From Nocardioides sp. cx-173 (GTDB lineage Bacteria > Actinomycetota > Actinomycetes > Propionibacteriales > Nocardioidaceae): 64,000 nucleotides of DNA. Positions within the stretch are counted from its first letter, which is position 1. Each line of letters begins with the position of its first letter. Where the stretch lies: assembly GCF_021117365.1 (NCBI RefSeq), contig NZ_CP088262.1, positions 2,499,001 to 2,563,000 of the forward strand. Direction: 5' to 3'. Under the pieces are notes generated by a model that saw only the letters and a list, made by a program, of their open reading frames with translations, was not told the origin of the DNA and did no database searches. The position numbers and the translations under genes are program-made. Below are positions 29,204 to 46,671 of the stretch, piece after piece.

Positions 29204-29223
29204 GGCGATACTGGGTTCGAACC
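29204..29223. other. attL core: displaced tRNA-Val 3' fragment
   Basis: GGCGATACTGGGTTCGAACC is identical to positions 46602-46621, the T-arm and acceptor end of tRNA-Val(CAC) on the minus strand. Bases on either side do not match. It marks the integrase-proximal end of the island. Confidence 0.9.
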
Positions 29224-29466
29224 CCAACGGAGCGTGCGGTCGATCTGGCCACTTCTGACCTGTCCATGAGCGCGAATCGCCCGTAGAATAGGGGATCTGA
29301 GCATCGCGGTGATCGAGACACCCGTCGACATCCGCGGACAACTTTGATCGCCGTTGTTCCTTTTTTGTTCCCTCCCAGTCCACTTCCAGTATCGCCGTCA
29401 GTGCACTTCCAGTGTCGCGGCGGAGCAGGGGGAACAGCGGCATCGGACGAGACAGGATCACTCCCA

Positions 29467-30627: not shown

Positions 30628-30769
30628 GCGGCGGTAAGACGCGACTCCTGGGGACGCGCGGATCGGCATGAGCGTGCGTGAGCCGCCCTGTCGCTGCGCC
30701 CGCAGGTGTTTCTGCCTCGTGCCAGCAACACGTCCAACTCTCGCCACCCTCGCGCCTAAGATGCGCAAC

Positions 30770-30859
30770 ATGAGCGCCTACTGTCCTTACTGTCACGGGG
30801 TCTACGACGAGTCCGAGTACACCCGTTGTCCCGACTGCGAGTCTTCACGTCAGGACTGA
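30770..30859 (+). CDS. Tiny Cys-rich (zinc-ribbon-like) protein, 29 aa
   Basis: The ORF contains SAYCPYCHGVYDESEYTRCP, then DCESSRQD. Four Cys in two CxxC pairs, spaced by about 13 residues, form a compact zinc ribbon. The ATG at 30770 lies about 140 bp after int. A second Cys-rich ORF begins 5 bp after its stop. Function is unknown; such tiny ribbons occur in mobile-element control regions. Confidence 0.45.
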   Translation: MSAYCPYCHGVYDESEYTRCPDCESSRQD

Positions 30860-30864
30860 CGACC

Positions 30865-31020
30865 ATGGACTGTCCTGAGTGCGGGCACGGCATCAGTTAC
30901 CACTCCTCCGAAGGCTGCTTTTGGGGCCCCAGCGACATCCGCGACATGTCGTCACCGATGTGCTCGTGCGGGCTCAACAAGCGCGACATCCAAGCCCTTG
31001 TTGACGAGCAGGGGGCCTGA
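30865..31020 (+). CDS. Small Cys/His-rich protein, 51 aa
   Basis: This starts MDCPECGHGISYHSSEGCFW and ends with SPMCSCGLNKRDIQALVDEQ. It has a CxxC pair near the N terminus, a His and Cys further on, and a CSCG pair, suggesting one zinc site. The ATG follows the upstream small ORF after 5 bp, so the two are probably co-expressed. No family is recognised. It is not in the integrase frame. Confidence 0.5.
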   Translation: MDCPECGHGISYHSSEGCFWGPSDIRDMSSPMCSCGLNKRDIQALVDEQGA

Positions 31021-31291
31021 GGTCTGCGCCTCATTGTCCCTAGGAGCGAGAACAGCAGCGCACGCTCATCGGCATGAGAGGAGGTTCAGATGCACCACCG
31101 GCGGGGAAAGACGAGCGCGGCATGACGACTGAATCGCGATGCCGGCGTCTCCATGAACTGAAGGTCCGGAACAAGATGCTCCCGAGCTGTCCTGTCCCAT
31201 GGCCATGTTGTTCGAATCGTCGGACACCGTGGTCCCGAAGGTGGATAGTGACAGACACTCCTTCCGGTACCGATCTTAGTTTAGGAGAGAC

Positions 31292-33592
31292 GTGTCAACA
31301 AGGAACGGAACGCCGCTTGTTCGGCTGACGATCGTGACCGTGAGTCTCATAGCGCTCTCGGCGGTCGCTCGGATTAGCACGGGAAGTTGGGTGCCCGACG
31401 ATCCGCTGGAGGCCATCCTTTTCCAGAATGCCTTGCTCCTTGTAGTCTTGGGGTCGTCGCTACTCGAGACACACTTCACCAAGCCGGCCGAGGGTCTCGT
31501 CAATTCACTAACAGCATTAATCACAATGACCGGCGTGTATACGACGGCACCAAGGGCACCTTGGATTCTGGTCAGTTGCTTTCTCGCGTTCGTATTCCTT
31601 GCGTCAGCGATCTGCGTTGCTCTGCAATCGCGAGGGTCCAGCGGTCGCCTCGTGGACGGTGTAGCCGCCGCCACGTACCGAATGTCGGTAACCCTCGGCA
31701 GCGCACGGATTGTCTTTTCGGTGGTATTTCTCTCGGCCGTCGGATTCTTCGTAGTCGACCAGACCACGACGACATTGGTGCTGCTGACATTCTGGGCCGT
31801 GTTCATGGCGATCTGGCCCCTCGGTCTTCCCGAGTGGTTCTCCGAGTTGCGTCGCGGCAGGGACCCCGCCTCACGGGTAGTCGGGCACGTGGACCGTGTC
31901 GATAGCCCTGGAATTGTCCGAGTAGCCCTACAGGTTCCCGACGCGTGGCGATGGGGGCAGGGCGATCCAGTGCTAGTTCACCTCCAAGATCGTTCTACCG
32001 CTTGGGGTATACCGGTCGCCTCGGAGGATCGTCCTGACGGACGGTGGGGAACCCTGTTGCTGGCAGGTGTCGCGCTGGGGCACGACTGGAGATCTCCTGG
32101 TGGCGTAGTTGAGCGGGCCGCGCTAGGCGAGGATGTCCCTACCGGGCCGGAGCTGTACCGCAAGATCACTGGCATCGAGTCGCCCGAACTCATCGGTTTC
32201 GTGCGTGAGGGGTCGAACGTTTCATCATTGAACGTTGAGGCCCTCCCCGGAGTGAATCTCGAGATCGGGCAACTCGTTGTCGTCCCCATCGAAACCGGGA
32301 ACGTTTGGTACCAGGTAACAAGCGGCGAGACCTATGAAGAAACCTTCAAGGGATTGAACTACGGGTCCCACTTGGTCAGGGTCGCCCAGATCGGTCGTGC
32401 CGACGCGAAGGGCGCCTTTAGGAAATTCTCTTGGTTGCCCCCGATGAATGCACCTGTATTCCGTGCACCAGCCAACTTCGGCGGCGGCGAGGAAGGGGAT
32501 CCTGCGGTCTACGAGCTCGGTCGGATTCCAGGTACTGAAGTGGTGCTGCGAGGTGACTTCGTCGAAAACCTGCAGACCCACACAGCGATCCTGGGTGTCA
32601 CCGGTTCAGGTAAGACGGAGTTCGCGTTCGACTTATTACGCCATGCTGTGGAGAATCAAACCAAAGTTGTCTGTATAGACCTGACCGCTCAATACGCGGA
32701 TCGGCTCGATGATCTGTCACCGACTTCGCTATCAATTTCTGACGACCTAACGACCAAACTCGGTGCCAAGCTTTTCGACGTGGAGACGGGCAACTATGGG
32801 GCCGGGGCCGAGAAGAAAGCACTCGAGGCCTTTGCGGCGCAGATTCGTGATGACGTTGCCACAGCACTCCGAGCGTTCGTGGACGACCCAAACTCTAACC
32901 TGGGCCTGATCGAGCTTCGCGAGATCTCGAATACGAAGGCAACCCTGTGGATTACGGAGGCCTTCTTGAGCGCCCTGTTGCGTCTTGCGAAGGACGGCGG
33001 ACTAAACAGCAGGAAGGTCTTGGTGGTCGTAGAGGAGGCACACACCGTGATGCCTGAGTTGTCCTTCGTGGGCGTGGGCGACTTCGACTCGAAGGGCACG
33101 GTTGCGAAGATCTCTCAGATCGCGTTGCAGGGTCGCAAGTACGGAGTCGGTCTACTCGTCCTCGCCCAGCGAACAGCGACGGTGAGCAAGTCGGTTCTAA
33201 CTCAGTGCAATACCGTGATTAGCTTCTCGTGCATCGACGACACAAGCATCAACTTCCTCCGGAACGTGTACGGCACCACCGTGGCGGAGGGATTGCCGTT
33301 GCTGCCTCGCCTACGCGCGGTAGCGCACGGGGCCTGGATCGACTCCGAGTCTCCGATTGTTTTCGAGGTTCCGTTTGACGCGGCCAAGGCCGGTCTCGGA
33401 TCCTGGGCCCCAAAGGGCGCGTCCAGCGGTCCGTCTGCGGGCGCGGGCTCGGCCCCAACAACGCCGACCGCGCAGCCGACCCAAGACGCTGGGGGCTGGG
33501 CACAACCGGCGGCAACGAAGCCTGGACCGCAACCGACGACTCTGGCACCTGGCACTTCGACGGGGAGCGGGTGGGACGAGCCGCCGTTCTAG
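31292..33592 (+). CDS. Membrane-anchored HerA/DUF87-type ATPase
   Basis: This 766-residue protein starts at a GTG preceded by AGGAGAG. Residues about 1-190 hold five or six membrane segments (SLIALSAVARI, LLLVVLGSSLL, IVFSVVFLSAVGFFVV, FWAVFMAIWPL). Next is a beta-rich region. The RecA/HerA motor domain has Walker A GVTGSGKTEF at about 435-443, Walker B VLVVVEEAHTVMPE at about 577-589, the Arg-rich ALQGRKYGVGLLVLAQR and the HerA-type end NFLRNVYGTTVAEGLPLLP. The last 60 residues are a Pro/Thr/Gly-rich tail. It is likely a hexameric DNA or nucleoprotein translocase, perhaps a coupling or transfer protein, or a defence motor. Base composition looks less GC-rich than its neighbours. Confidence 0.82.
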   Translation: MSTRNGTPLVRLTIVTVSLIALSAVARISTGSWVPDDPLEAILFQNALLLVVLGSSLLETHFTKPAEGLVNSLTALITMTGVYTTAPRAPWILVSCFLAFVFLASAICVALQSRGSSGRLVDGVAAATYRMSVTLGSARIVFSVVFLSAVGFFVVDQTTTTLVLLTFWAVFMAIWPLGLPEWFSELRRGRDPASRVVGHVDRVDSPGIVRVALQVPDAWRWGQGDPVLVHLQDRSTAWGIPVASEDRPDGRWGTLLLAGVALGHDWRSPGGVVERAALGEDVPTGPELYRKITGIESPELIGFVREGSNVSSLNVEALPGVNLEIGQLVVVPIETGNVWYQVTSGETYEETFKGLNYGSHLVRVAQIGRADAKGAFRKFSWLPPMNAPVFRAPANFGGGEEGDPAVYELGRIPGTEVVLRGDFVENLQTHTAILGVTGSGKTEFAFDLLRHAVENQTKVVCIDLTAQYADRLDDLSPTSLSISDDLTTKLGAKLFDVETGNYGAGAEKKALEAFAAQIRDDVATALRAFVDDPNSNLGLIELREISNTKATLWITEAFLSALLRLAKDGGLNSRKVLVVVEEAHTVMPELSFVGVGDFDSKGTVAKISQIALQGRKYGVGLLVLAQRTATVSKSVLTQCNTVISFSCIDDTSINFLRNVYGTTVAEGLPLLPRLRAVAHGAWIDSESPIVFEVPFDAAKAGLGSWAPKGASSGPSAGAGSAPTTPTAQPTQDAGGWAQPAATKPGPQPTTLAPGTSTGSGWDEPPF

Positions 33593-33759
33593 GCGGGTGT
33601 ACTGGGTCGAGTGTGCTTTGTACGCAAGCCGTAGATCGACCGCCATCGATCGCGCTCGCGGAGCCTGCCGGGAGTCCTGAACTAGAAGTCATAGTGGGTG
33701 GAGCGGGCTACCCGGCGGTTTCCGCTCTTCCAGGATCGTATGACTGTCGCGGCGTTCAT

Positions 33760-33789
33760 ATGACCGGCATGTCAGTCATGCTGTAGACT
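33760..33789 (+). promoter_or_regulatory. Promoter of the MNT/HEPN pair, with overlapping inverted repeat
   Basis: A -35-like ATGACC (33760-33765) and -10-like TAGACT (33784-33789) are 18 bp apart. Only 7 bp separate the -10 from the ATG at 33797, so the mRNA is probably leaderless. ATGAC/GTCAT arms (33760-33764, 33775-33779) overlap it and would suit self-repression by the wHTH of the MNT protein. Another TATGAC copy lies at 33739. Confidence 0.45.
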
Positions 33790-33796
33790 GAGACCC

Positions 33797-34387
33797 ATGC
33801 ACTTCAACCAGCCCTTCGGTGGCGTGATGCCGGGTGCTCGTGGAGCGGTACTCGCGGTCCTGCTGCGCACTGGTGAGCCGCTGACGGGCCGGCAGATTCA
33901 TGGCATCGTCAGCGACGAGCACAGCCTGTGGTCAGTTCAGGAGGCGTTGAAGGCACTCACCGACCTCGGGCTGGTCACGTCCCGCACGGTGGGTAGGGCC
34001 GGCATTCACGAGATCAACGAGGCGCACGCGTCGGTGGCGCCGCTGCGGGCCCTCCTTGATCCAATGGCGTCGCTACGTGCGGCCGTCTCCGATGCGGTTG
34101 GCTCGGACGTGGACGCAGTGCTGCTTTTCGGTTCCACCGCCCGCGGGGAAGCCACGGAGGCGAGCGACGTCGACCTTGCGGTGATCGCCGCTGTCGGTTG
34201 GAGCGGGCGCGTCGAGCTCGAGGACATTGTGCGTGCGCGACTGGGCAATGAGTGCGACGTCCTTGTGTTCACCCCGGCCGAGTTCGCAGAGAGGGCGCAG
34301 GAGGCTGAGCCAGTGGTGGCCGACATCGTCCGCGACGGCGTTGCCTTGGTGGGTCGGAAGCCGGTCCTCAGCCGAGGCGCCGCCTGA
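33797..34387 (+). CDS. MNT-type nucleotidyltransferase antitoxin with N-terminal wHTH
   Basis: This 196-residue protein begins with a winged helix (about 10-75: LLRTGEPLTGRQIHGIVSDE, LGLVTSRTVGRAG). The nucleotidyltransferase domain (about 95-185) has the motif LLFGSTARGEATEASDVDLA, with G-S and D-x-D acid residues. In MNT/HEPN pairs such enzymes add AMP to the HEPN partner and so neutralise it. The wHTH suggests it also represses its own promoter. The stop overlaps the HEPN start by 1 bp. Confidence 0.82.
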   Translation: MHFNQPFGGVMPGARGAVLAVLLRTGEPLTGRQIHGIVSDEHSLWSVQEALKALTDLGLVTSRTVGRAGIHEINEAHASVAPLRALLDPMASLRAAVSDAVGSDVDAVLLFGSTARGEATEASDVDLAVIAAVGWSGRVELEDIVRARLGNECDVLVFTPAEFAERAQEAEPVVADIVRDGVALVGRKPVLSRGAA

Positions 34388-34788
34388 TGGCGACCGCTGA
34401 GCAACGCAACCACGCCAGGAACTACCTGAAGAAGGCCGAGGAGTACGCCGCGTCCGCGGCGGCCAATCTCGCGGCCGGGCGGTTCACGCCGGCTGCCGCC
34501 GACTCGATCCACGCTGGCATCTGCGCGAAGGATGCCATCGTCACAGTGCTGACCGGCTCCACTCGCAAGGGCACCGACCACGCCACAGCAGCCAAGGAGC
34601 TACGGCGAGCGCTGGGTGCCCGATCCGCCGCAGCGACTGCTGAGCGCGCTTTACGCGAGCTGCTCGCGGCCAAGGGTGACGTCGAGTACGGCACCAACCT
34701 CATCACCGGCGCGAAGGCCGAGCCGCTGGTACGGAGAGCCGACTCGTTGGTCGAGCTGGCGACCGAGATCGTCCGACTAGGCGGATAG
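34387..34788 (+). CDS. HEPN-domain protein (partner of MNT)
   Basis: This 133-residue helical protein contains NHARNYLKKAEEYAASAAANL, FTPAAADSIHAGICAKDAIV and LVELATEIVRLGG, the pattern of minimal HEPN proteins paired with MNT enzymes. The canonical RxxxxxH catalytic motif is not clear in the sequence. The partner gene is directly upstream and overlapping, which supports a toxin-antitoxin role. HEPN toxins are typically RNases. Confidence 0.75.
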   Translation: MATAEQRNHARNYLKKAEEYAASAAANLAAGRFTPAAADSIHAGICAKDAIVTVLTGSTRKGTDHATAAKELRRALGARSAAATAERALRELLAAKGDVEYGTNLITGAKAEPLVRRADSLVELATEIVRLGG

Positions 34789-34915
34789 AAGAACCACGTC
34801 CTGGCAGGCTCTCGGACGATGAGTTCTCCGTTCATCGGACTCTGGGGCAGCGCGAGTACTTCTGCGAGTCGGCGGGCCCCGGCGTGCGATCGCGGATGGC
34901 CGTCGTTCATCGCGG

Positions 34916-35113
34916 TCACCGCCGGGCCGAGGGGATGCGGCGCAGTGCGGATTCGAGCTCGTCGAGTCGTAGCCGTATGGAGCGTCGCCCGCACTGGTAC
35001 GCGGGGATGGTGCCGTCGCTGATGCGGCGTCGGATGGTCCGGGTGGACAGCGACATCATCTCGGCAGCCTCCTCGAGGCTGACGTAGACGGGCAGCTCAC
35101 GCCTTCTGGCCAT
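34916..35113 (-). CDS. Excisionase-like helix-turn-helix protein
   Basis: This 65-residue protein has the AlpA/Xis-type domain: VYVSLEEAAEMMSLSTRTIRRR, IPAYQCGRRSIRLRLDELES. It is the usual small DNA-binding partner of tyrosine integrases or a control protein of mobile elements. It lies 3 bp from the next HTH gene on the same strand, near the relaxase gene rather than next to int. Its direct target is unknown. Confidence 0.8.
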   Translation of the reverse strand: MARRRELPVYVSLEEAAEMMSLSTRTIRRRISDGTIPAYQCGRRSIRLRLDELESALRRIPSARR

Positions 35114-35116
35114 CGT

Positions 35117-35344
35117 TCAGCTCCTCGCCGTCGACTTGGCCGTGGCGGTAGCGACGAAGCGCCGCGCCTCGGCTACCTGGATGTACAACCGTCCGCAGCC
35201 CTCGAATCTGGCCCAGCGGGGTCCGACGCCACGTCGGCGCCAGTCGCGCACGGTGCGTTGCGGGGTGTGGATGAGGAGGCAGAAGTCCTCGAAGGTGAGG
35301 AGCGCCTGGTCGTGCCATTCCTCGGGGATGTGGATCTGGTCCAT
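35117..35344 (-). CDS. Small helix-turn-helix protein
   Basis: This 75-residue protein contains LTFEDFCLLIHTPQRTVRDWRRR, then PRWARFEGCGRLYIQVAEARRF. The domain resembles the pyocin-activator/excisionase winged-helix group. It precedes the 65-residue HTH gene by 3 bp on the same strand. Together they may form the control pair of the element, acting on relaxase or int. Confidence 0.7.
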   Translation of the reverse strand: MDQIHIPEEWHDQALLTFEDFCLLIHTPQRTVRDWRRRGVGPRWARFEGCGRLYIQVAEARRFVATATAKSTARS

Positions 35345-35471
35345 GGTGCCCTCCGGTCGTTGAGGACGTGATCGCGCCGGTCAGGTCCGGTGCGTTCCGC
35401 GGTTGGCGGCGGATGTCCTCTCACGTTCACCAAGGTCAAAAGATGCCGTCGGGCGATCACTCAGGCCGAAA

Positions 35472-35489
35472 CTCGTCACTGCTCGTCAC
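35472..35489. repeat. 18-bp direct repeat, relaxase 3' end
   Basis: CTCGTCACTGCTCGTCAC, itself two CTCGTCAC units split by TG, contains the relaxase stop codon. An identical copy in the same orientation lies at 38203-38220, just before the relaxase start. The gene is thus bracketed exactly by the repeat. Confidence 0.9.
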
Positions 35490-38200
35490 CGACCGATGCC
35501 CCTGGGCGAGGCCGTAGGCGTCGGCGGCACTAGGTGCTCGAGGCGGCGCCGACTCTGCGGGATCGCGTCGGAGTTGGGGTTGGTGTCTGGCGTCTGAGTG
35601 CCGTAGCGGTCGATCGCGTCGAGCGCGCGTTGGACGGCGTGTGCGGGGCCGAGGTCGGCGCGGTCGCGGCCGAACACCTCGATCCACTGCGCGCGTGCCT
35701 GGTCGAGGTTGTCGGCGACGAGGTGGGCGGTGTTGCTGTCTCGGCCGCGGGTCATGCCGACGTACGCCGACGCGGCGCCGGTGGTCTCGCCGATGAGCAG
35801 GTGCGCGTGGTCGACGGTGTCGCCCTGGGCGCCGTGCACGGTGGTGGCGAAGGCGAGCTCGACGTGGCGTCGGGCGTACTCGGCGGGCAGCCTCCGCTCG
35901 CCGCACCGGCCGTGGACGAGGAGGGATCCGTCGTCGCTCACGGCTGCGACGGTCCAGGTGTCGCGGTTGGCGACGCCCAGGTCGCGGTCGTTGCGGCGGG
36001 TCGCGACGCGGTCGCCTTTGCTGAGTTGTTCGCCGGCGGACGTCGTCAGGGTCGCCGCTTCGGCTGACTCGACGGCGCCCTCGTCGGCGAGCCGTAGGTC
36101 GCGGATGGCGGCGTTGAGCAGACCCACCTGATCGCGGGTGTCGGCGATGAGCAAGGGAGCCGTACGCAGGTCGCCGGCGGCTGCTCGTGTGACGGCCGCG
36201 AGGCGCTCGACCTCGGTTGGGTGGATGACGATCTCGCCGCGGCCGACGAGAGTGTCGAAGACGTCGCCGCTGCGTTCGCCGGTGCGCATCTGGAGGGTGA
36301 GGTCGGCGTAGGTGTCGTCGACGAAGCGGTGGACGGTGTCGAGCTCGACGCAGGCTTCGTCCGCGGTCCAGCGGATGGCCAGGTCGAAGGCGCCGCCGCG
36401 GCCAACGGCCGGCAACTGGTGTCGGTCGCCGACGAGCGCGACGCGAGCGCCGGAGTCGTCGGCGACGGTGAGCAGTGCGCGCATGACGTCCTGGTCGAGC
36501 ATGCCGGCTTCGTCGACGAGCAGGACGTCACCAGGCAGGAGGCGCGCGAGTGCGTTCGGGCTCGGGTGGTCGTCGAGGTCGACGCGGTGCCAGCGTCCGT
36601 CGTCGTCCCAACGGAAGCCGTGCTGGTGGACGAGCCAGGCGGCCGAGAAGGCGTCGCAGCCGACCTGCTCCCCCGCGACCTGCGCGGCCTTGAGGGTCGG
36701 GGCGACCACGACCAGTCGGTGGCCTTCGCTGTCGAGACGGTCGCTGGCCGCAGCGAGGGTGGTGGTCTTGCCGGTGCCGGCCGCGCCCTCGACGACGACC
36801 AGTCGGGCCGTGCCGAGGAGTGCGCCGACGACGTCTCGTTGGCCTTGGTCGAGCTGTCGTCGGGCGACGACGGATCCGACTTGGGCTGGCGTCCCGGGGT
36901 GCTCGGCTCGCGCGACCAGGCGGGCGATGATGTCGGACTCGACGGCGAGGACCTCGCGCGAGGTGAGCGCGCGGACGTGGTCGGGTACGTCGTCGCGCTG
37001 CAGGAGGGGACGCGACGCCTCGACCGCGCGAGCGGTGAGGTCCTCCCCCAGTTCGCGTCGTACGACGCCGTCGACGATCACCCCAATGTCGGCGACGATC
37101 CGTTCGCACTCGCCGCGGAGGTCGGCGGCGTTCCAGCTGGAGCGTCGAGCTCCGAGACGCACCAGCGCGAGCTCGGCCACGGCGTCGCGGTTGATGCGGG
37201 CGATCGGCGTCGCGGCCGGGATGACCGCGACCGGGTCGGTGGGTGGCGTTGGAGGATCGAACCCGAGGCCGCGCAGCTCGTCGGTCCACCGCTGCGCGAG
37301 GTCGGCTCCGGATGCCGGCACGACCTTGTCGGGACGCGCCTCTGACCAGGCTCGGCGGTCCCATGCCCGTCGCTGGCGCGGTCCGGGCTCGTGGTCGGGG
37401 TGGTCCGCGCGCCACGCCGCTTCGTACTTGTCGACGTTGCGGTCGATCTGTGCGGCCCGGGCGCTGAACCGGCCGGCGTACGGCACGAGCTCGGTGATCT
37501 CGCCGGTGCCGGCGTCGAGGGTGTAGCCGTGCGCGGCGAGGGCGCGCCGGAACTCGGGGTCACAGGCGACGGCGGCGTGCCCGATCCCGTTGATCGCCTC
37601 GATGCTGTCGACGACACCGATGGAGTGCAGTCCGCGCCACGTGCCGTGGGCGAACACGCGAGCGTTGATCTGCAGATGGAGATGGCGGTGCGGGTCGCCG
37701 GCGCGGGAGGTGTGGTGTCTGACGACGGCTGCCTCGATCCGCTCGACCGGCACCTGCACCTGTCGGCCGCGCGGCCCGATCCGCGTCGTGGCGTGGTCGG
37801 CGACCCAGCCGATGATCTCGCCGGCGGCGCGTTCCTGGGCAGCGTCGTACGCCTCGGCAATCGCGGGGTGGACCGCGGCTGCCAGCGACCACGTCTTCGG
37901 TCCGTTGACCACGACCTCGACGAACCGGAGTCCGTGCTCGTCGCTGCGGAGCCGACCCTTGGGCGTACCGGTCTTGACGTCGTACCCGGCGACCCAGCGT
38001 TCGTAGCTGTCGCCGTCGAGCGTTCCCGCAACCTCGGCACCGCCGCCGTCCGTCGGTGTCGCGACGTAGTGGGTGGCCAGTCCGGTGCCCTCTGCCAGGT
38101 AGTAGTCGTCGACGCGTGCCCGGTCGGCCTCGACGTAGGAGCGTGCGGCGGCAGCGGCGCCGCGGTAGAACTTCACCCCGCCGTGCACTCCCCCACTCAC
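35486..38200 (-). CDS. MobF-family relaxase-helicase (TraA/TrwC-like)
   Basis: This 904-residue relaxase has an N-terminal TrwC domain (about 1-270) with Tyr residues near DDYYLAEGTG and the His cluster HHTSRAGDPHRHLHLQIN (about 160-177). A RecD-type helicase region follows, with Walker A VEGAAGTGKTTTLAAA (about 475) and Walker B LLVDEAGMLDQDV (about 560). RNARV/QGDTVDHAHLL lie in the later motifs. It nicks oriT and unwinds the transferred strand. It starts at a GTG; an in-frame GTG 8 codons on (VKFYRG) is an alternative. Flanked by 18-bp direct repeats. Confidence 0.9.
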   Translation of the reverse strand: MSGGVHGGVKFYRGAAAAARSYVEADRARVDDYYLAEGTGLATHYVATPTDGGGAEVAGTLDGDSYERWVAGYDVKTGTPKGRLRSDEHGLRFVEVVVNGPKTWSLAAAVHPAIAEAYDAAQERAAGEIIGWVADHATTRIGPRGRQVQVPVERIEAAVVRHHTSRAGDPHRHLHLQINARVFAHGTWRGLHSIGVVDSIEAINGIGHAAVACDPEFRRALAAHGYTLDAGTGEITELVPYAGRFSARAAQIDRNVDKYEAAWRADHPDHEPGPRQRRAWDRRAWSEARPDKVVPASGADLAQRWTDELRGLGFDPPTPPTDPVAVIPAATPIARINRDAVAELALVRLGARRSSWNAADLRGECERIVADIGVIVDGVVRRELGEDLTARAVEASRPLLQRDDVPDHVRALTSREVLAVESDIIARLVARAEHPGTPAQVGSVVARRQLDQGQRDVVGALLGTARLVVVEGAAGTGKTTTLAAASDRLDSEGHRLVVVAPTLKAAQVAGEQVGCDAFSAAWLVHQHGFRWDDDGRWHRVDLDDHPSPNALARLLPGDVLLVDEAGMLDQDVMRALLTVADDSGARVALVGDRHQLPAVGRGGAFDLAIRWTADEACVELDTVHRFVDDTYADLTLQMRTGERSGDVFDTLVGRGEIVIHPTEVERLAAVTRAAAGDLRTAPLLIADTRDQVGLLNAAIRDLRLADEGAVESAEAATLTTSAGEQLSKGDRVATRRNDRDLGVANRDTWTVAAVSDDGSLLVHGRCGERRLPAEYARRHVELAFATTVHGAQGDTVDHAHLLIGETTGAASAYVGMTRGRDSNTAHLVADNLDQARAQWIEVFGRDRADLGPAHAVQRALDAIDRYGTQTPDTNPNSDAIPQSRRRLEHLVPPTPTASPRGIGR

Positions 38201-38202
38201 CG

Positions 38203-38220
38203 CTCGTCACTGCTCGTCAC
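38203..38220. repeat. 18-bp direct repeat, relaxase 5' end
   Basis: Second identical copy of CTCGTCACTGCTCGTCAC, directly upstream of the relaxase GTG at 38200. See the copy at 35472-35489. Confidence 0.9.
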
Positions 38221-38236
38221 TTAGCCCGCAAATGGC

Positions 38237-38267
38237 GCTCGGCCCGCCCCAGGGGGACGGGCCGAGC
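38237..38267. other. Hairpin ahead of the relaxase (candidate oriT or terminator)
   Basis: A perfect inverted repeat with 10-bp arms GCTCGGCCCG/CGGGCCGAGC around CCCCAGGGGGA lies 37 bp upstream of the relaxase start. The 306-bp gap to hsdR holds no gene I can support. In many MobF elements oriT lies next to the relaxase gene, so this gap is the likely place. It could equally end the hsdR transcript. Confidence 0.45.
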
Positions 38268-38506
38268 TGGTTGATCTACGGACCTTCGTAGCATGCGTGC
38301 CGCTCCGTTTCGAGGCCAATCAGGCGGTTTGGGGACCACCGGAATCCGGAACCGTCACTCGTCGTAAGTCTGGGCCGTCGGCGCACGACTTGCGATGAGT
38401 CGCGACCTCGTCGCTGCTTACGGATCAATGGCGGCTGGTCGCTGGGGACATTAGAAGGGCCCGTGGATGGGCGCGCATCGGTATGGCCCTCCGGTCGACG
38501 AGTGGA

Positions 38507-41500
38507 TCAGCTCAGCCCGGCGTAGCGGTCGAAAAAGTCGATGAGCTTAGCCAGTACCCGTTGCTTCTTGCCTCCGTGATCATTGCCCTTCGAGAAGCGC
38601 GAGGCGGGCGGCAGGATCTTCGTGATCGCGGTGCCGGACGTCGGCACGGACCCGTCACGGAACGCCTCGGTGACAAACGCTCGCGCCTCCTCACCCTTGA
38701 GTGCTTCGGTCTTGATCAGGTCGTCCAACTCGGCGTCACGGCGCTGGGTGATGAAGGCGCGCCAGTCGTCGCCGACCTCGTCGCTGACGGACTGCGAGTC
38801 GACGAAGTCCATGATCAGGTCGCGCTTGTTTCGCAGCGTCGGGCTCGCATCGACGGCGTTCTCGATGTCGACCACCTGGCTGACGTGCTCGGTCCCATCG
38901 GCCTTCGCCTCACGCCACTTCAGGACGAGCATGAGGATGTAGTCAATGTTGACCTCGACCTGCTTGACCAGCTCGATCTCGAAGACGACGTCGTCGAGGA
39001 TCGACTCCTTCTCGGGGGTCTCACGCTTGCGGTGCTTCTCCCAGAGTCCGTTGTAGACGCTGGTGTAGTTCTGCAGGTCGCGCGCGGAGAGGGTGTCGTC
39101 GCTCGCGAACTCGTCGAACGAGGTCAGGACGTTGCGCAACTTCAGGATCTTGCCGAAGAGCTCCACGAACCGCTTCTCCGCGGCTTCCCCGAACGGCGCA
39201 TCACCCGGTGGGGTCGACTCGAGGAGCTGTCCCACGACCTTCTCGTAGGAATCGCGGTAATCCTTGTATGGCTTGAGCAGCACCACACCCCGGGCCTGGC
39301 TGTTGGCGAAGAGCGCGAGCGCGTCGTCGACCGCAGTCTCCAGGTTGCGGAAGCAGACGATGTTGCCGTAGGCCTTGACCGAGTTGAGGATCCGGTTGGT
39401 GCGGCTGAAGGCCTGGATCAGGCCGTGGGACTTGAGGCTCTTGTCCACCCACAAGGTGTTGAGGGTGGTCGCGTCGAAGCCGGTGAGGAACATGTTGACC
39501 ACCAGCACCAGGTCGACGTCGCGCTCCTTCACGCGCTTGGCGAGGTCCTTGTAGTAGTTCTCGAACTTCGCCGACGACGTGTCGTACGACGTCCCGAAGG
39601 TCGCGTTGTAGTCACCGATCGCGTGCTCGAGGAAGTCGCGGGAGGAGCCGTCGAGCGCGTCGGCGTCCATCGCCTCGTCGCTGAGGATGCCTCCGTCCTC
39701 GACCTCTTCGTTGGCGGCGTAGCTGAAGATCGTGGCGATCTTCAACGGCTGGTATGCCGGATCGGCCGCCAGACGCGCGGCCTGCTGCTTCGCGAACTCC
39801 AGGTAGTAGGCCTTGAGTGCCGGGATCGAGGCGGTGGCGAACATCGAGTTGAAACCGCGCACCCGCTTCTCGCCCAGGGCATACCCCTGACCGCGCATGG
39901 TCTTGGTGTCGAAGTGGTCCAGGACGTAGCCGACCACCTTCGCGATGCGCTCGGGGGCCAGCAGCACCTCTTCGGTGTTGATGGCCTCCACGTCCTTGTC
40001 GGTGACGTGGTCGGCCACCCGGACCGTGTTCTGGTACGACACCCGGAAGGGCAGCACGTTCCCGTCGTTGATGGCGTCGACGATCGTGTAGGAGTGCAGC
40101 CGGTCGCCGAAAACGGCCTCGGTGGTGTCGAGCTTCGCGCCGGTCGCGTTCTCCGGGAAGATCGGCGTCCCGGTGAAGCCGAACAGGTGGTAGCGCTTGA
40201 ACGCCTTGCGGATCGAGGTGCCCATGTCGCCGAACTGGCTGCGGTGGCACTCGTCGAAGATCAAGACAAGATGCCCGGAGTAGATCTGGTGGCCCTTGTT
40301 GCCGTCAATGAAGTTGGAGAGCTTCTGGATCGTGGTGACGATGATGCGGGAGTTCGGGTCCTGCAGCTGCCGCTTGAGCTCGGCCGTCGACTTCGACCCG
40401 TTGACCGAGTCCTTCTCGAACCGGTTGTACTCCAGCATCGTCTGGTAGTCGAGGTCCTTGCGGTCGACCACGAACAGCACCTTGTCGATGCCGTCCATCT
40501 TGGACGCGAGCTGGGCGGTCTTGAAGGACGTGAGGGTCTTGCCCGACCCGGTGGTGTGCCAGATGTAGCCGCCTGCGGCGGTGCTGCCGAGCTGTTTGGC
40601 GTTCGTCGAGGTGACGACGCGTTGCAGGATCCGTTCGGCGGCGACGATCTGGTAGGGCCGCATCACCAGGAGCGTGCGGGAGACGTCGAAGACGCAGTAC
40701 TTGGTCAGGATGTTGAGCAGCGTGTGCTTGGCGAAGAACGTCTTGGTGAACGCAGTCAGCTCGCCGATTCGCTTGTTGCGCGCGTCGGTCCACCACGAGG
40801 TGAACTCGAACGTGTTCGACGTCTGCTTCTTGCCCCGCCGTCCGCCTTCGGACTCTGCGATCCTCCGGGCGCGGGTGGTGTTGGCGTAGTACTTCGTCTG
40901 GGTGCCGTTGGAGATGACGAACAGTTGGACGTACTCGAACAGACCGGCGTCGGCCCAGAACGATTCGCGCTGGTAGCGGCTGATCTGGTTGAACGCCTCC
41001 TTGAGCGCGACCCCGCGCCGCTTGAGTTCGACGTGCACCAGCGGTAGGCCGTTGACCAGGATCGTGACGTCGTAGCGGTGCTGCCGGGCGACGCCCGCGC
41101 CCTCACCGGTGGTCTCGTACTGGTTGATGACCTGAAGACGGTTGTTGTGGATGTTCGCCTTGTCGATCAGCCTGATGTTCTTGCTGGTGCCGTCGTCGCG
41201 GGTGAGGACCTGGATGTGGTCCTCCTGGATCTTCGCGGTCTTCTCGACGATGCCCTCGTTCTTCGAGGCCACCTTCTCGGTGAAGAACCGCTCCCACTCG
41301 GCGTCGCTGAACGTGATCCCGTTGAGAGTCTCCGGCTGCGTGCGCACGTTCGCCACCAGATCCGCGGACGAGGTGATGACCAGCCGCTCGTACGCCTGCG
41401 CCTGGAGCCGCTCGATGAAGCCCTCCTCCAGTTGCGCCTCGGACTGGTAGCCCTCTGACGTGGCCGGCTCGGGTTCGTACGTCGCCACCACGGTCGACTC

Positions 41501-41554
41501 GTCGGTCACGGCGATCGGTTCATAGCGGAGCGCGGAATCCGGGGCTTCGGTCAT
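38507..41554 (-). CDS. hsdR: Type I restriction enzyme, restriction subunit HsdR
   Basis: This 1015-residue protein has the PD-(D/E)xK nuclease region: acidic D162 in YDVTILVNGLPLV and HVELKRRG (E176, K178). The SF2 translocase follows: HTTGSGKTLTSFK (334-340), VVDRKDLDYQT, FDECHRSQFG (434-437) and later helicase motifs (VLVVNMFLTGFDA). The C-terminal part carries a helical HsdR tail. It cuts DNA after translocation by the HsdM/HsdS/HsdR complex. It ends the operon, and its ATG overlaps hsdS by 4 bp. All key residues look intact. Confidence 0.95.
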   Translation of the reverse strand: MTEAPDSALRYEPIAVTDESTVVATYEPEPATSEGYQSEAQLEEGFIERLQAQAYERLVITSSADLVANVRTQPETLNGITFSDAEWERFFTEKVASKNEGIVEKTAKIQEDHIQVLTRDDGTSKNIRLIDKANIHNNRLQVINQYETTGEGAGVARQHRYDVTILVNGLPLVHVELKRRGVALKEAFNQISRYQRESFWADAGLFEYVQLFVISNGTQTKYYANTTRARRIAESEGGRRGKKQTSNTFEFTSWWTDARNKRIGELTAFTKTFFAKHTLLNILTKYCVFDVSRTLLVMRPYQIVAAERILQRVVTSTNAKQLGSTAAGGYIWHTTGSGKTLTSFKTAQLASKMDGIDKVLFVVDRKDLDYQTMLEYNRFEKDSVNGSKSTAELKRQLQDPNSRIIVTTIQKLSNFIDGNKGHQIYSGHLVLIFDECHRSQFGDMGTSIRKAFKRYHLFGFTGTPIFPENATGAKLDTTEAVFGDRLHSYTIVDAINDGNVLPFRVSYQNTVRVADHVTDKDVEAINTEEVLLAPERIAKVVGYVLDHFDTKTMRGQGYALGEKRVRGFNSMFATASIPALKAYYLEFAKQQAARLAADPAYQPLKIATIFSYAANEEVEDGGILSDEAMDADALDGSSRDFLEHAIGDYNATFGTSYDTSSAKFENYYKDLAKRVKERDVDLVLVVNMFLTGFDATTLNTLWVDKSLKSHGLIQAFSRTNRILNSVKAYGNIVCFRNLETAVDDALALFANSQARGVVLLKPYKDYRDSYEKVVGQLLESTPPGDAPFGEAAEKRFVELFGKILKLRNVLTSFDEFASDDTLSARDLQNYTSVYNGLWEKHRKRETPEKESILDDVVFEIELVKQVEVNIDYILMLVLKWREAKADGTEHVSQVVDIENAVDASPTLRNKRDLIMDFVDSQSVSDEVGDDWRAFITQRRDAELDDLIKTEALKGEEARAFVTEAFRDGSVPTSGTAITKILPPASRFSKGNDHGGKKQRVLAKLIDFFDRYAGLS

Positions 41555-42753
41555 GCCGCATCCGACCTCTCGGGGAAGGTCAGGAGCCTGTCGCGGTAGT
41601 ACTCGTACTGCTGGCGACGGGCAGCGATCTCGGCGGGCAGGCCGATCGACGGGCTATTGACGAGGGCATCCAACCTGTCCAGGATCGCGACGATGCGCTC
41701 CTGCTCGTCAAGCGAGGGCACCATGATGGTGGCATTCAATATGTTGCTGTTATAGAGCCGGGCGATGGTCCCGCCGTCCGTTGCGCCCCATTGAATAACC
41801 CCGTACCAGTGTCTGAGGTAAGCGTCGGTCACGACCGACTCATCGTGTTCCAACCAAACGATGTTCGAGTCCTGAAAGTACGCGTCACGGCCGTCATACA
41901 CCACCACGCGCCCGATGGTTCCCGATGCTGAGACGAGAACGGCGCCGGGCCGGGGAAACGGGAAACGCGCTCGGTAATCCTCGAAGACTTCTCGCTCGAT
42001 AAAGGAGTTAGGTGTCCTTCCAAAGGTGCCGATCTTGTAGAAAGGGATTTCGCCAGTGGACGACGTCTCGTGCTTGAAGATGCGCTTGCACATCGCAACA
42101 CGTCCGATGTCGCCCAAAGTCATCGATTGATGCCGAGCATCCTTGAGAAGCGCGTCGCGGTAGAACTCGTACTGACAGGAGCGCGCATTCAACTCTGCTT
42201 GCAGCTCCGCTTGCAGTCTTTCCATGTTGTCGAGAATCGAGACGATCTCGCGCTGGACTGCGAGGGGCGGGACCGGGATCTGGATGCGTGCAATGTCGGC
42301 CGCTTTGATGTCCTTGACCTTGGTGCCACTGACGAACCTGCGCTTCTGAATCTCGAATCGCTCGGTCTGGAAGTAGTAGGCGGCGTACATCGGGTCGAGC
42401 GAGTGCTTGAACACGCACGCGTGACCACCGATGGCGATGTCGGTGTCCCCCAACCACGCGACTGCCGTGCAGACGTCCTCAACGTTCTCACTGGTGGTCG
42501 TCACCACCAAGTCACCTGGGGCGGCCTTCTTCAAGGTCGCCGCCAGGGTCGGCGTGATGAACGACTTCGTCGTCGTGGTCGAGGTGCCGTAGAACGTGTA
42601 GATCTGTCCGTAGTGGATGCACGGAAAGCCGTCCTCCACGAAATCCTTCTTCTGGAGACCGCTCCCGCGCAGGAACGTCCCGACGTCGCCGAGCGCTCGG
42701 AACTCGACGCCGTCGGGACAGAACTCCGAGATCAGGTCGTCGATGCGGCTCAC
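41551..42753 (-). CDS. hsdS: Type I restriction enzyme, specificity subunit HsdS
   Basis: This 400-residue protein contains two target-recognition domains, each followed by a helical spacer: IPVPPLAVQREIVSILDNMER (about 175) and VPSLDEQERIVAILDRLDAL (about 360). The first TRD (about 10-165) starts FCPDGVEFRALGDVG, the second around MCKRIFKHETSSTGEIPFYK. Together they define the bipartite DNA target. It lies between hsdM and hsdR with 4-bp overlaps on both sides, as usual. The target sequence cannot be told from here. Confidence 0.94.
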   Translation of the reverse strand: MSRIDDLISEFCPDGVEFRALGDVGTFLRGSGLQKKDFVEDGFPCIHYGQIYTFYGTSTTTTKSFITPTLAATLKKAAPGDLVVTTTSENVEDVCTAVAWLGDTDIAIGGHACVFKHSLDPMYAAYYFQTERFEIQKRRFVSGTKVKDIKAADIARIQIPVPPLAVQREIVSILDNMERLQAELQAELNARSCQYEFYRDALLKDARHQSMTLGDIGRVAMCKRIFKHETSSTGEIPFYKIGTFGRTPNSFIEREVFEDYRARFPFPRPGAVLVSASGTIGRVVVYDGRDAYFQDSNIVWLEHDESVVTDAYLRHWYGVIQWGATDGGTIARLYNSNILNATIMVPSLDEQERIVAILDRLDALVNSPSIGLPAEIAARRQQYEYYRDRLLTFPERSDAA

Positions 42754-44321
42754 GCCTGCGCCTCCAACTCGGCGACGATCGCGTCGATTTCGGTGCGCAG
42801 CTTGGTCTGGCGCTCGACGATCCGGGCGATCTCGGTGTTCAGTTCGGCGATGTCGACGGCGACCTGGGTGTCCTCGGCCTCGACATAGGAGCTGACCGCG
42901 ATGTTGTAGTTGTTCTCCGCGATCGTGGCGTGGTCGACGAGCGTCGCGAAGTGGGCGACGTCCTCGCGGGCCGTGAAGGCGTCCAGGATCTTCTGCTGGT
43001 GCTCGTCGGTGAGCTTGTTCTTGTTGCCCTGGCGGGCGAACTCCGCCGAGGCGTCGACGAAAAGCACCTTGTTGTCGGTCTTCGACTTCTTCAAAACGAT
43101 CACGCAGGTGGCTATCGTGGTGCCGAAGAAGAGATCCGGAGGCAACTGGATCACCGCGTCGACGTAGTTGTTATCGATGAGGTACTTGCGGATCTTCTGC
43201 TCTGCGCCACCGCGGTAGAGCACGCCGGGGAACTCGACGATCGCCGCCGTGCCATCGACGGCGAGCCAGTGCAGCATGTGCATCGTGAAAGCCAGGTCGG
43301 CCTTCGACTTCGGGGCCAGCACACCGGCCGGGGCGAAGCGCTCGTCGTTGATCAGCAGCGGGTTCGCGTCGCCCTCCCACCTGATCGAATAGGGCGGGTT
43401 GGACACGATCGCTTCGAACGGCTCGTCGTCCCAGTGGGCCGGGTCGATCAGCGTGTCGCCGTGGGCGATGTCGAACTGCTCGTAGTTGACGTCGTGCAGG
43501 AACATGTTGATCCGGCACAGGTTGTAGGTGGTCAGGTTGATCTCCTGACCGAAGAAGCCCCTGCGGACCCCGCCGGGCAACACCTTGTTGAACTGCAGCA
43601 GCAGGGACCCGGAGCCGCACGCGGGGTCGTACACCTTGTTGACCTCGGTCTTGCCGACCACGGTGATCCGCGCCAGGAGTTCGGAGACCTCCTGGGGTGT
43701 GTAGTACTCGCCGCCGGACTTGCCGGCGTTGGCGGCGTACATGCCCATCAGATATTCGTAGGCGTCGCCGAAGGCGTCGATGGTGTTGTGAGTGAAGCCG
43801 TCGTTGCCGAAGTCGAGGTCGCCGATCGCGTCGAGCAGCTTGACCAGCTTCTCGTTGCGCTTGGCCACCGTCGGGCCGAGCTTGCCGCTGTTGACGTCGA
43901 GGTCGGCGAAGAGGCCCTTGATGTCGTCCTCGGAACCGGCGCCCACTGCCGAGGCCTCGATGTTGGTAAAGACCCGCGAAAGGGTCTCGTTGAGGTTCTC
44001 ATCGGTGCGGGCGCGCTCGCGGACGTTGGCGAAGAGGTCCTGAGGAAGGATGTAGAGGCCCTTCTCCTTGACCGTCTCCTCGCGGCCGAACTCCGCGTTG
44101 GCGTTCGGTAGACGGCGGTAGTCGAAGTCGGCGTCCCCGGCCTTGCGCTCGGCCTCGTTGAGGTAGGCGGTGAGGTTCTCGGAGATGAACCGGTAGAACA
44201 GGATCCCCAGGACGTACGTCTTGAAGTCCCAGCCGTCGACGCTGCCACGCATGTCGTTGGCGATCCGCCAGATGGTCTTGTGGAGCTCTGCGCGCTCGAT
44301 TTCCTTGGTGGTGCTGGTCAT
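42750..44321 (-). CDS. hsdM: Type I restriction enzyme, methyltransferase subunit HsdM
   Basis: This 523-residue N6-adenine methyltransferase starts with a helical HsdM N terminus. The SAM motif is VYDPACGSGSLLL (232-242) and the catalytic motif is VSNPPYS (about 307-312). It methylates the HsdS target on each strand and protects the host. It overlaps both the upstream DUF262 gene and the downstream hsdS by 4 bp, so the four genes form one translational unit. Confidence 0.96.
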   Translation of the reverse strand: MTSTTKEIERAELHKTIWRIANDMRGSVDGWDFKTYVLGILFYRFISENLTAYLNEAERKAGDADFDYRRLPNANAEFGREETVKEKGLYILPQDLFANVRERARTDENLNETLSRVFTNIEASAVGAGSEDDIKGLFADLDVNSGKLGPTVAKRNEKLVKLLDAIGDLDFGNDGFTHNTIDAFGDAYEYLMGMYAANAGKSGGEYYTPQEVSELLARITVVGKTEVNKVYDPACGSGSLLLQFNKVLPGGVRRGFFGQEINLTTYNLCRINMFLHDVNYEQFDIAHGDTLIDPAHWDDEPFEAIVSNPPYSIRWEGDANPLLINDERFAPAGVLAPKSKADLAFTMHMLHWLAVDGTAAIVEFPGVLYRGGAEQKIRKYLIDNNYVDAVIQLPPDLFFGTTIATCVIVLKKSKTDNKVLFVDASAEFARQGNKNKLTDEHQQKILDAFTAREDVAHFATLVDHATIAENNYNIAVSSYVEAEDTQVAVDIAELNTEIARIVERQTKLRTEIDAIVAELEAQA

Positions 44322-46396
44322 GCCACTTCCTCTATGAGCGCGGTGAGGTCTTCGGCGGCGAGCTTGGCGTCCGGGTCGGCGCAGCCGTCGGTGAAGACCA
44401 AGCCTTCGGATTCCAGGACAGTTTGAGGGTCACGGGTGTCATCAGGGTCAGTCCAGGCAAACCCTTCAGCGATGCGGCCGTCCCAGGTGAGGACCCGGTA
44501 CGGATGGGCACACAAGGTGCACTTGGAGACGTGGTTGGCCACAGCTTGAGCCGACGTCCCGATCGCCTCACCGAGATAGTAGTAGCCCGTCCACCTGCCC
44601 TCGGGGATCAGGCTGAGGATCTCGTGGGCCACCGACCAGTCGAAGCCCTGCTCCTGCTTGAACTGGACGCGGTAGTCAGCCAGGACCTCAGGTGACAACG
44701 AGGGCCGCTTCCAGAGGCGGACGGCCTGCTGCGCGAGCCTCTCAGCGCGCTTGACGATCTCGGTCTCGTTCCAGGTGTCGAGCTCGGCGAGATCCTTATT
44801 CAGCTGGAGGTGGCTGTCCTTGAAGCCCCCGGCCATGTCGCGCTTGTCGATGAACGGTTTGTCCGACAGCTCGGGGTTGTAGCCGGTCAAAGTCAGGTTG
44901 CCGAGCGTGTGCAGCAAGCGAGACTGGACGTCCCGCCAGTCGGCGCCCAGCATCGCCTGCCAGGCGGGCGAGAGCTTCTCGTTCTGCGGCATGACGTGCT
45001 CGATGGAGTAGTCGCCGATGCTGATCGGTTCCTTGTGGCTGTCGTTCTCCATCTTGGTGAAGAAATACGGGGCACGCTGAAGCCCGTAGAGGTTTTCGTC
45101 GCGCAGATGCTTCGCGAACTCCTCGTCGTCGGGGAAGCGCTTGTAGCTGTCGAGTGTCAGGAAACGTCCCCAGATGGCCTCGACATACGCCCCAGGGACC
45201 ATCTGGCTGGCGAGCGCCGCGAAGGTGCTGCGCAGTGAGTTGGTGGGCACTCGGCAGATGGTGCGCCGGAAGAGGTAGGAGATGACAGCGTCGAGCAGCT
45301 GTGAGAACTCAATCGTGGTGAGCTTCTGGGCTTCGTAGTCCTCGTAAACGCGCAGCAGGAATGGGTAGACCACGACGGCCTTGAGTTGCTCCAACTCCAC
45401 GAACCGCATCGCGAGCTGGGGGTTGGTCTCCTTGCCCAAGGCCATCTTGACGAAGTAGGCCGAGGTACGGCTGAGGTCGATCACGACGTCTTCGCAGCTG
45501 ACGCCGATGAGCGCCTGGCTGTCGACGTACACCTTGAAGGCGTCGTAGATGTCTTCAAGCCGCGGGATCGTGCCTGTCCGGACGGTCAGGAAGTGTCGGA
45601 CGAACTCGTCGAAGCGGCGCTCATTCGTGCCTTTGAACGCCTGCTCCATCGGGAACCAGTAACCCTCGTACAGATGAGTCTGATGGCTCGGCTCAAGGTC
45701 CATGAGCACGAAGTTGCGGATGAGGTCGGCCTGCGAGAGCTTCTTGCCGGTCGAGTTCATCGCCTCGAAGACGAGCTGCGGGTTGTCGACGCCGCGCGCG
45801 AGGTGGACGTCGACGACCACCAGCTTGCTGATGCCCTTGCACACAGCCGCCAGATCGGTCTTCGGATCCTTGAGCTTGGCGACGAAGTACTGGTAGTTCG
45901 CAATCACGCGCGAACGGTTGTCCGAGGGCAGCGGGTCCTTGCGCACCACGGCCTTCAGCGCTTCATTGTCGCTCTGGGACAGGATCAGCTTGAAGAACTT
46001 GTCGCCGCTCTCGTACTCGTTCGTGAGCCACAGGCCGCGGATCTTGCGGGGAGCGAAGCCGTCGACTGGCTCCTGTTCCGCGGCTGGGAGGCCGTCGAGG
46101 TGAGCAGCGATCGCGGCGAGAAGCAAGGTCACCGTGGTGGTGCGCTGCTGGCCGTCGATGATCAGGGCCGGCTCGGCCTGCGCGATGTTGCCCTGGGCCT
46201 TCTCGACGTACACGATCGAGCCGGTGAAGTGGGCGCCGATGGTGTCGCTGCTGCCCGCGCGGACGATGTCCTTCCAGAGCTGCTCGCATTCACTGGGATC
46301 CCAGGAGTAGACCCGCTGGTAGATCGGCACCACGAACTGGGTCGCCTTCTTCAACAGATCGAGCAGGTTGGCGTCGACGGCTTTCACAGCGGCCAT
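44318..46396 (-). CDS. DUF262-DUF1524 (GmrSD-like) nuclease fused to an alkyltransferase-like domain
   Basis: This 692-residue protein leads the R-M operon. Residues 1-about 230 hold a ParB-like DUF262 domain with PIYQRVYSW (24-32) and IDGQQRT (80-86). After a helical region, the DUF1524 HNH-type part has SIEHVMPQN (about 462-470) and HTLGNLTLTGYNP (about 490). The C terminus (about 600-690) matches MGMT/ATL proteins: IPEGRWTGYYYLGEAIGTS, QAVANHVSK, AHPYRVLTWDGRIAEG. The alkyl-acceptor Cys of PCHR is absent, so the domain likely reads bases rather than repairs them. Proteins of this class are modification-dependent restriction enzymes (type IV). Here a type IV-like enzyme is welded to a type I system by overlap with hsdM. 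Confidence 0.8.
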   Translation of the reverse strand: MAAVKAVDANLLDLLKKATQFVVPIYQRVYSWDPSECEQLWKDIVRAGSSDTIGAHFTGSIVYVEKAQGNIAQAEPALIIDGQQRTTTVTLLLAAIAAHLDGLPAAEQEPVDGFAPRKIRGLWLTNEYESGDKFFKLILSQSDNEALKAVVRKDPLPSDNRSRVIANYQYFVAKLKDPKTDLAAVCKGISKLVVVDVHLARGVDNPQLVFEAMNSTGKKLSQADLIRNFVLMDLEPSHQTHLYEGYWFPMEQAFKGTNERRFDEFVRHFLTVRTGTIPRLEDIYDAFKVYVDSQALIGVSCEDVVIDLSRTSAYFVKMALGKETNPQLAMRFVELEQLKAVVVYPFLLRVYEDYEAQKLTTIEFSQLLDAVISYLFRRTICRVPTNSLRSTFAALASQMVPGAYVEAIWGRFLTLDSYKRFPDDEEFAKHLRDENLYGLQRAPYFFTKMENDSHKEPISIGDYSIEHVMPQNEKLSPAWQAMLGADWRDVQSRLLHTLGNLTLTGYNPELSDKPFIDKRDMAGGFKDSHLQLNKDLAELDTWNETEIVKRAERLAQQAVRLWKRPSLSPEVLADYRVQFKQEQGFDWSVAHEILSLIPEGRWTGYYYLGEAIGTSAQAVANHVSKCTLCAHPYRVLTWDGRIAEGFAWTDPDDTRDPQTVLESEGLVFTDGCADPDAKLAAEDLTALIEEVA

Positions 46397-46599
46397 CCTG
46401 CCGTCTACCTCTGACCAATGGGTCCGGTCCCCCTGATCGACACGGGAGCGGATACGCAGATCAAGGCCCCGGACTGCGCCGGCCTACGTTCGGCCCAAGT
46501 GGTGACAGAAGCGGCCAGAACTGGGCGCTCACTGTTCCTCGTATGTTCCTCATCCGCTGATGTGGGAACAAAACAGGCCTCTGACCTGCGGAAACGGGG

Positions 46600-46671
46600 T
46601 GGGCGATACTGGGTTCGAACCAGTGACCTCTTCGGTGTGAACGAAGCGCGCTACCACTGCGCCAATCGCCC
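46600..46671 (-). tRNA. tRNA-Val (anticodon CAC)
   Basis: 72 nt, acceptor GGGCGAT/ATCGCCC, anticodon loop TTCACAC in the stem CTTCG/CGAAG, and T-loop GGTTCGAACC. CCA is not encoded. It is the integration target of the island. Apart from the anticodon arm and one T-loop base it is identical to tRNA-Val(GAC) at 48457-48528. Confidence 0.96.
46602..46621. other. attR core within tRNA-Val(CAC)
   Basis: GGCGATACTGGGTTCGAACC covers the T-arm and acceptor 3' side of tRNA-Val on the minus strand and repeats the left copy at 29204-29223. Insertion at this site keeps the tRNA complete. Confidence 0.9.

Follow-up and report, generated by a model that had tools for sequence, protein, structure and literature searches.

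An alkyltransferase-like fold fused to a GmrSD-family nuclease at the head of a type I restriction-modification operon in Nocardioides

What does a nuclease that carries an alkyltransferase-like (ATL) domain do at the head of a type I restriction-modification operon? The question is raised by a fusion gene in a 64,000-nucleotide stretch of Nocardioides sp. cx-173 (contig NZ_CP088262.1, positions 2,499,001 to 2,563,000), referred to here as the window. Our preferred reading, which we rate slightly better than even, is that the product is a single-chain HNH nuclease of the GmrSD family, regulated by nucleoside triphosphate (NTP) and sensing modified DNA. Its catalytically dead, ATL-like winged helix would be an exchangeable DNA-reading module. 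The gene shares its operon with those of a type I system, and the whole operon is carried by a mobile element.

Architecture of the fusion protein and its operon

The initial annotation of this locus, made without database searches, described DUF262, DUF1524 and ATL domains in that order, an ATL domain lacking its acceptor cysteine, and a complete type I operon whose consecutive genes overlap by 4 bp. All of these features are confirmed here (Table 1). Conservation was assessed in an alignment (A1) of 56 rows, consisting of the window protein and 55 homologues, which were selected among the 120 listed out of 7777 matches. The (I/V)DGQQR motif typical of GmrSD DUF262 domains is present as I80-D-G-Q-Q-R85 in 56/56 rows, as is the EHxxP motif of the HNH-type DUF1524 domain (E466-H467-x-x-P470). 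Residues P24, Y26, Q27, R28 and D81-G-Q-Q-R85 of the DUF262 part are equally invariant. Because the key residues of both domains are retained in every row, the nuclease looks intact.

The best structural and sequence matches of this core are DndI and SspE, with DndI ranking first. The best PADLOC model is 'Orf5' (571.7 bits). In studied homologues, DUF262 is described as sensing modification and hydrolysing NTP, thereby controlling the HNH domain (PMC11662687, PMC11411939, PMC12707154). By analogy with such homologues, the fusion probably acts as an NTPase and nuclease and may be co-translated with the hsd genes.

The C-terminus has the winged-helix fold of the alkylguanine alkyltransferase (AGT) type that is found in ATLs. 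Residue equivalences were taken from an alignment with 3gva and were read in 119 homologues, which are the 120 listed minus one truncated at the ATL sites. As in ATLs, there is no alkyl-acceptor cysteine, and its place is occupied by Pro (85), Ala (30) or Gly (4). The fusion shares this absence and the fold with ATL proteins such as S. pombe Atl1 and Vibrio ATL, and its Tyr605 aligns with the Tyr of their STYGEIA motif. It differs from them in its replaced Arg finger, in a W602/F646/W648 signature and in being part of a nuclease. Residues W602, T603, Y605, H622 and F646 are invariant in A1, and W648 is present in 55/56 rows. W602, T603, Y605 and F646 also occur in all 16 rows of a more diverse set (A2), where H622 is nearly invariant. 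The C626-x2-C629 pair is present in all 119 readable homologues. Five rows of A2 carry it (the window protein, L006, L106, L096 and P0121), whereas the remaining 11 do not. The invariant H622-x3-C626-x2-C629 motif adjoins the ATL recognition helix, and a metal site is one possible role for it.

A free-standing ATL family of this type was sought with the 120-amino-acid domain. Of 18 candidates, four proteins of 95-175 amino acids reached E <= 0.001, and no clear free-standing family emerged. At least some of these short matches are pieces of fusions, since P0122 visibly contains the end of a GmrSD core. A pattern search of viral contigs yielded no matches. Thirty-five plasmid records match at E <= 1e-30, and among the 30 plasmid matches listed only H12, from a Streptomyces plasmid (33.5%, 4-688), aligns to the ATL end, with the others stopping at 471-638.

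The fusion is the first gene of four, and it is followed in the same operon by the complete hsdM, hsdS and hsdR genes of an EcoR124-like type I system. Expression by read-through from the tRNA-Val gene, located a short way upstream in the same orientation, was considered and set aside because a terminator-like hairpin (46573-46589) intervenes. One such hairpin was found between the two genes, against 0.2 expected from shuffled sequences.

Table 1. Features of the fusion gene, its operon and the surrounding element (positions in the window)
Feature	Residues	Positions	Strand	Basis or remarks
GmrSD-ATL fusion gene		44318..46396	-	692 amino acids
DUF262 / GmrSD_N domain	12-230	45707..46363	-	Pfam PF03235, E 4.1e-32
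DGQQR nucleotide-binding motif	81-85	46142..46156	-	invariant in 56/56 rows (A1)
DUF1524 / GmrSD_C HNH domain	421-556	44729..45136	-	Pfam PF07510, E 9.5e-25
EHVMPQN nuclease motif	466-472	44981..45001	-	E466, H467, P470, Q471 invariant in 56/56 rows (A1)
ATL-fold winged-helix domain	583-690	44327..44650	-
Place of ATL Arg finger	Q617	44546..44548	-	alignment to 3gva
H622-x3-C626-x2-C629 motif	622-629	44510..44533	-	invariant in 56/56 rows (A1)
Place of alkyl-acceptor Cys	P632	44501..44503	-	alignment to 3gva
hsdM		42750..44321	-	TIGR00497, 729.8 bits; PF12161 + PF02384 (HsdM_N + N6_Mtase); 4-bp ATGA overlap with fusion gene
hsdS		41551..42753	-	PF01420 (Methylase_S); 4-bp GTGA overlap with hsdM
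hsdR		38507..41554	-	PF04313 (HSDR_N), PF12008 (EcoR124_C), TIGR00348; 4-bp ATGA overlap with hsdS; EcoR124-type C terminus
tRNA-Val-integrated mobile element carrying the operon		29204..46621		17.4 kb; putative limits, from direct repeat
tRNA-Val(CAC), attachment gene		46598..46671	-	ARAGORN, Rfam
Tyrosine integrase		29344..30627	+	PF00589, E 5.5e-18
HerA/TrwB-like ATPase		31292-33592		inside the element
MobF relaxase/helicase		35486..38200	-	PF08751, E 3.2e-51; NF041492 above cut-off

Homologue clades and exchange of C-terminal modules

Related cores carry different C-termini. Nine actinobacterial cores that are 52-57% identical to the window core end in DUF5655 (PF18899) instead of ATL, all nine (including L077) scoring above the cut-off. 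Pfam was run on 12 of the 35 DUF5655-like proteins. The other three, which are more distant or other relatives, gave 23.0 of 24 bits (L003), 18.0 bits (L017, likewise below the cut-off) and no match (L015), and their C-termini are alike by eye. Types were first assigned with a motif script and afterwards revised by visual inspection, in which the class 'other' became DUF5655-like except for P0037 and P0069 (ATL) and L012 (none). In a tree of 71 cores built by a quick method, 18 HxxxCxxC-ATL cores form one clade with a support of 100 (Shimodaira-Hasegawa-like approximate likelihood ratio test, SH-aLRT), nested in DUF5655-type cores. The remaining 17 ATL cores fall together on the opposite side of the tree, and at least two changes between ATL and DUF5655 are required. 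With no root to the tree, and with long branches converging on the second ATL group, gain of the ATL domain is indistinguishable from its loss. The ATL domain is best seen as one among several exchangeable C-terminal modules.

The L096 gene (7977-10415) joins a GmrSD core to a RAMA domain (E 8.4e-19) and an HxxxCxxC ATL domain, placing two putative readers in one protein. Its core is 30% and its ATL domain 50% identical to those of the window protein. This is modest evidence for ATL transfer, since ATL domains are generally more alike than cores (42% versus 36% between the window and L083; 47% versus 33% for L095). L106 (7989-10270, genome G1381) is an HxxxCxxC-clade relative whose gene is split into two frames of 204 and 556 amino acids with a 4-bp overlap. 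Eight of the 17 other-clade ATL fusions (L083-L088, L090 and L095) extend by about 165-180 amino acids beyond the ATL domain, and the two extensions scanned (L083 and L088) have no Pfam match. Scans of overlapping sets of 394 genomes from the class, 391 from the order, 396 from the phylum and another 396 from one genus yielded no additional HxxxCxxC-clade member apart from the split G1381 gene.

Proposed function and its alternatives

Restriction of DNA bearing a modification foreign to the host, as a complement to the type I enzyme and with the ATL fold as an added reader, appears by analogy to be the likeliest role of the fusion. The ATL fold would dock on DNA and help to select molecules with a base or backbone modification absent from the host. 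The DUF262 part, with its DGQQR motif and P-x-Y-Q stretch, would sense the modification and hydrolyse NTP, and the DUF1524 HNH domain would then nick or cut. That the ATL fold reads the modification, and which modification it would be, are guesses. Labor would be divided such that the type I enzyme cuts DNA without host methylation and the fusion cuts foreign-modified DNA. Layered defence of this kind is plausible, and the idea is in print for TgvAB, located in a Vibrio type I operon (PMC11411939), and for BrxU with BREX.

Three sets of observations weigh against this proposal. The first is that the residue corresponding to the Arg finger of ATLs is Gln (117), Gly (1) or Val (1) in the 119 readable homologues. 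In ATLs such as Atl1 this finger serves base flipping. ATL-type base flipping is therefore doubtful, and because both residues are replaced, neither alkyl acceptance nor the known ATL base flipping is expected of the fusion. The part of the initial annotation that saw the domain as a reader of damaged bases is weakened by this. Second, the predicted local distance difference test score (pLDDT) of the structure model falls below 50 at residues 1-31, 55-83 and 193-218. These regions cover the P-x-Y-Q stretch and the first residues of DGQQR, and the sensing pocket is therefore outlined by sequence and not by the model.

The third set comes from neighbouring genes. Relatives of HsdM and HsdR were sought by blastp with the window proteins (E <= 1e-6), a search that may miss remote type I subunits. 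Flanks spanned 0.2-10 kb, several loci ending 0.2-4 kb from the gene. The count covers 56 loci: 27 of the 30 from one genome-contig scan (L028, L031 and L032 were dropped for incomplete cores), plus 20 and 9. It leaves out the remaining 26-31% relatives, a further set of seven relatives, and the partial or weaker L073, L075 and L076. In the other ATL clade, none of the 17 sampled loci has both relatives, and one has HsdM alone; eight of these loci are near copies from one genus and four more come from another. Nor was the pair found at L096 or at the split-gene L106 (0/1 each). The flanks of all these loci spanned 2-10 kb on each side. Pairing with type I genes is thus not obligatory.

Both relatives are also absent at L012 (0/1), and 10 of 35 DUF5655-type loci have them (HsdM in 13, HsdR in 11). 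These counts, which agree with the statistics in PMC4619093, make type I pairing a trait of the wider GmrSD family and not one specific to the ATL fusion. The association with hsdMSR, which the initial annotation had made a touchstone, does recur at L006, a rearranged locus from an Acidimicrobiia metagenome-assembled genome, and does not extend to the other ATL clade. At L006, hsdM, hsdS and hsdR lie beside the fusion on the other strand (HsdM 78%, HsdS 45%, HsdR 62%). The HxxxCxxC clade's own association is hardly sampled, as just one other intact member is visible in context.

The alternative that survives best holds that the ATL-like part is a mere non-specific DNA-binding or dimerisation module and that DUF262 holds all specificity. 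We consider this rather unlikely. It would fit the loss of the acceptor cysteine and Arg finger in all 119 readable homologues and the closely related cores that manage with DUF5655 in place of ATL. However, the invariance of W602, T603, Y605, H622 and F646, four of which persist throughout A2, seemingly goes beyond what a generic anchor needs.

A further alternative, weaker than restriction of foreign-modified DNA and in our judgement distinctly improbable, is a self-mark reader of the DndI or SspE kind. The fusion would read HsdM/HsdS adenine methylation, be released or switched by it, and attack unmarked DNA alongside HsdR. The closest matches of the core do use a self mark (PMC11662687), hsdM is the adjacent gene, and hsdMSR is retained at the rearranged L006; yet the other ATL clade, L096 and L106 have no HsdM and HsdR pair beside them, and some GmrSD homologues, BrxU among them, work on their own against foreign marks. 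We give very little credence to a coupled four-protein system, in which the GmrSD nuclease would use a repurposed ATL domain stabilised by metal (H/C-x2-C) to read the methylation state set by HsdM/HsdS. Through this shared mark, one operon would detect both the absence of a mark and the presence of a foreign one.

Least probable of all, and very improbable in itself, is a phosphorothioate sensor of the DndI/SspE kind: DndI is the best core match and P24-x-Y26-Q27 aligns with P23/Y25/Q26 of its phosphorothioate-sensing patch, in which Y25 was tested (PMC11662687), but this stretch is not diagnostic because it is present in 56/56 rows of A1 and in another aligned DUF262 chain, and, whereas DndI and SspE work with phosphorothioation genes, DndB (PF14072) and DndC (TIGR03183) were not found in the fusion's own genome (ssp genes were not sought by their own models), leaving phosphorothioate self-sensing unsupported there. 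The fusion could still attack foreign phosphorothioate DNA.

The mobile element and the rest of the genome

An exact 20-bp direct repeat (29204-29223 and 46602-46621), located within the 3' part of the tRNA-Val gene, delimits a region with an integrase, a MobF relaxase and a G+C content that is lower across most of its length, except at 34-38 kb. These features identify an integrated element that carries the four-gene operon as cargo. The same element contains a nucleotidyltransferase gene (PF01909) that overlaps by 1 bp a 133-amino-acid gene without a Pfam match (33797-34788 together). As a guess, this could be an MNT-HEPN toxin-antitoxin pair.

A second type I operon is found elsewhere in the genome (L115, 5554-17965; C1, about 12.5-25 kb). 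It consists of hsdM (HsdM_N, N6_Mtase), hsdS (Methylase_S, 23.8 versus 22 bits), a DUF262 gene and hsdR (HSDR_N) in a row. The 615-amino-acid DUF262 protein has no DUF1524 match, and its gene lies between hsdS and hsdR, the position described for RloF. Farther along on the same strand is a MobF relaxase 66% identical to that of the window.

Relation to known systems

The initial annotation suggested that such fusions may be little described, a view that does not hold. Machnicka et al. (2015, PMC4619093) report PF01035 as an extra domain in several GmrSD homologues, mainly from Streptomyces, and found that among the defence genes beside GmrSD those for type I subunits are the commonest. Those homologues have the same three domains as the window fusion, and the passages on them give neither function nor operon. 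Unlike the window fusion, the other-clade ATL fusions sampled lack CxxC in their A2 rows and an adjoining pair of HsdM and HsdR relatives. RloF (PMC4619093) and TgvAB (PMC11411939) are encoded by GmrSD-family genes that share an operon with hsd genes, RloF between hsdS and hsdR and TgvAB as two proteins inside the operon. The window fusion also belongs to an hsd operon, though as its first gene and not between hsd genes, and it is a single protein with an ATL fold. Matches to DndI and SspE end at residues 566-568 of the fusion model, and that to the BREX-linked BrxU at residue 563, in each case ahead of the ATL domain.

Open-access literature queries combining DUF262 with DNA_binding_1 returned PMC4619093 only; those combining DUF262 and DUF1524 with alkyltransferase, or alkyltransferase-like with GmrSD restriction or phage defence, returned none. 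The combination of this fusion with this operon type, the CxxC clade and the C-terminus exchange were not met in that literature, whose scope leaves out most subscription journals and bioRxiv. The fusion and the type I-paired operon are each already in print, so the locus amounts to a modest variation on established defence systems and is not a new kind of system. If the ATL fold does set specificity, the GmrSD family would be one in which a single NTPase-nuclease core is combined with interchangeable C-terminal modules (ATL, DUF5655, RAMA), and sensing of phage modification would be a new use of an ancient DNA-repair fold.
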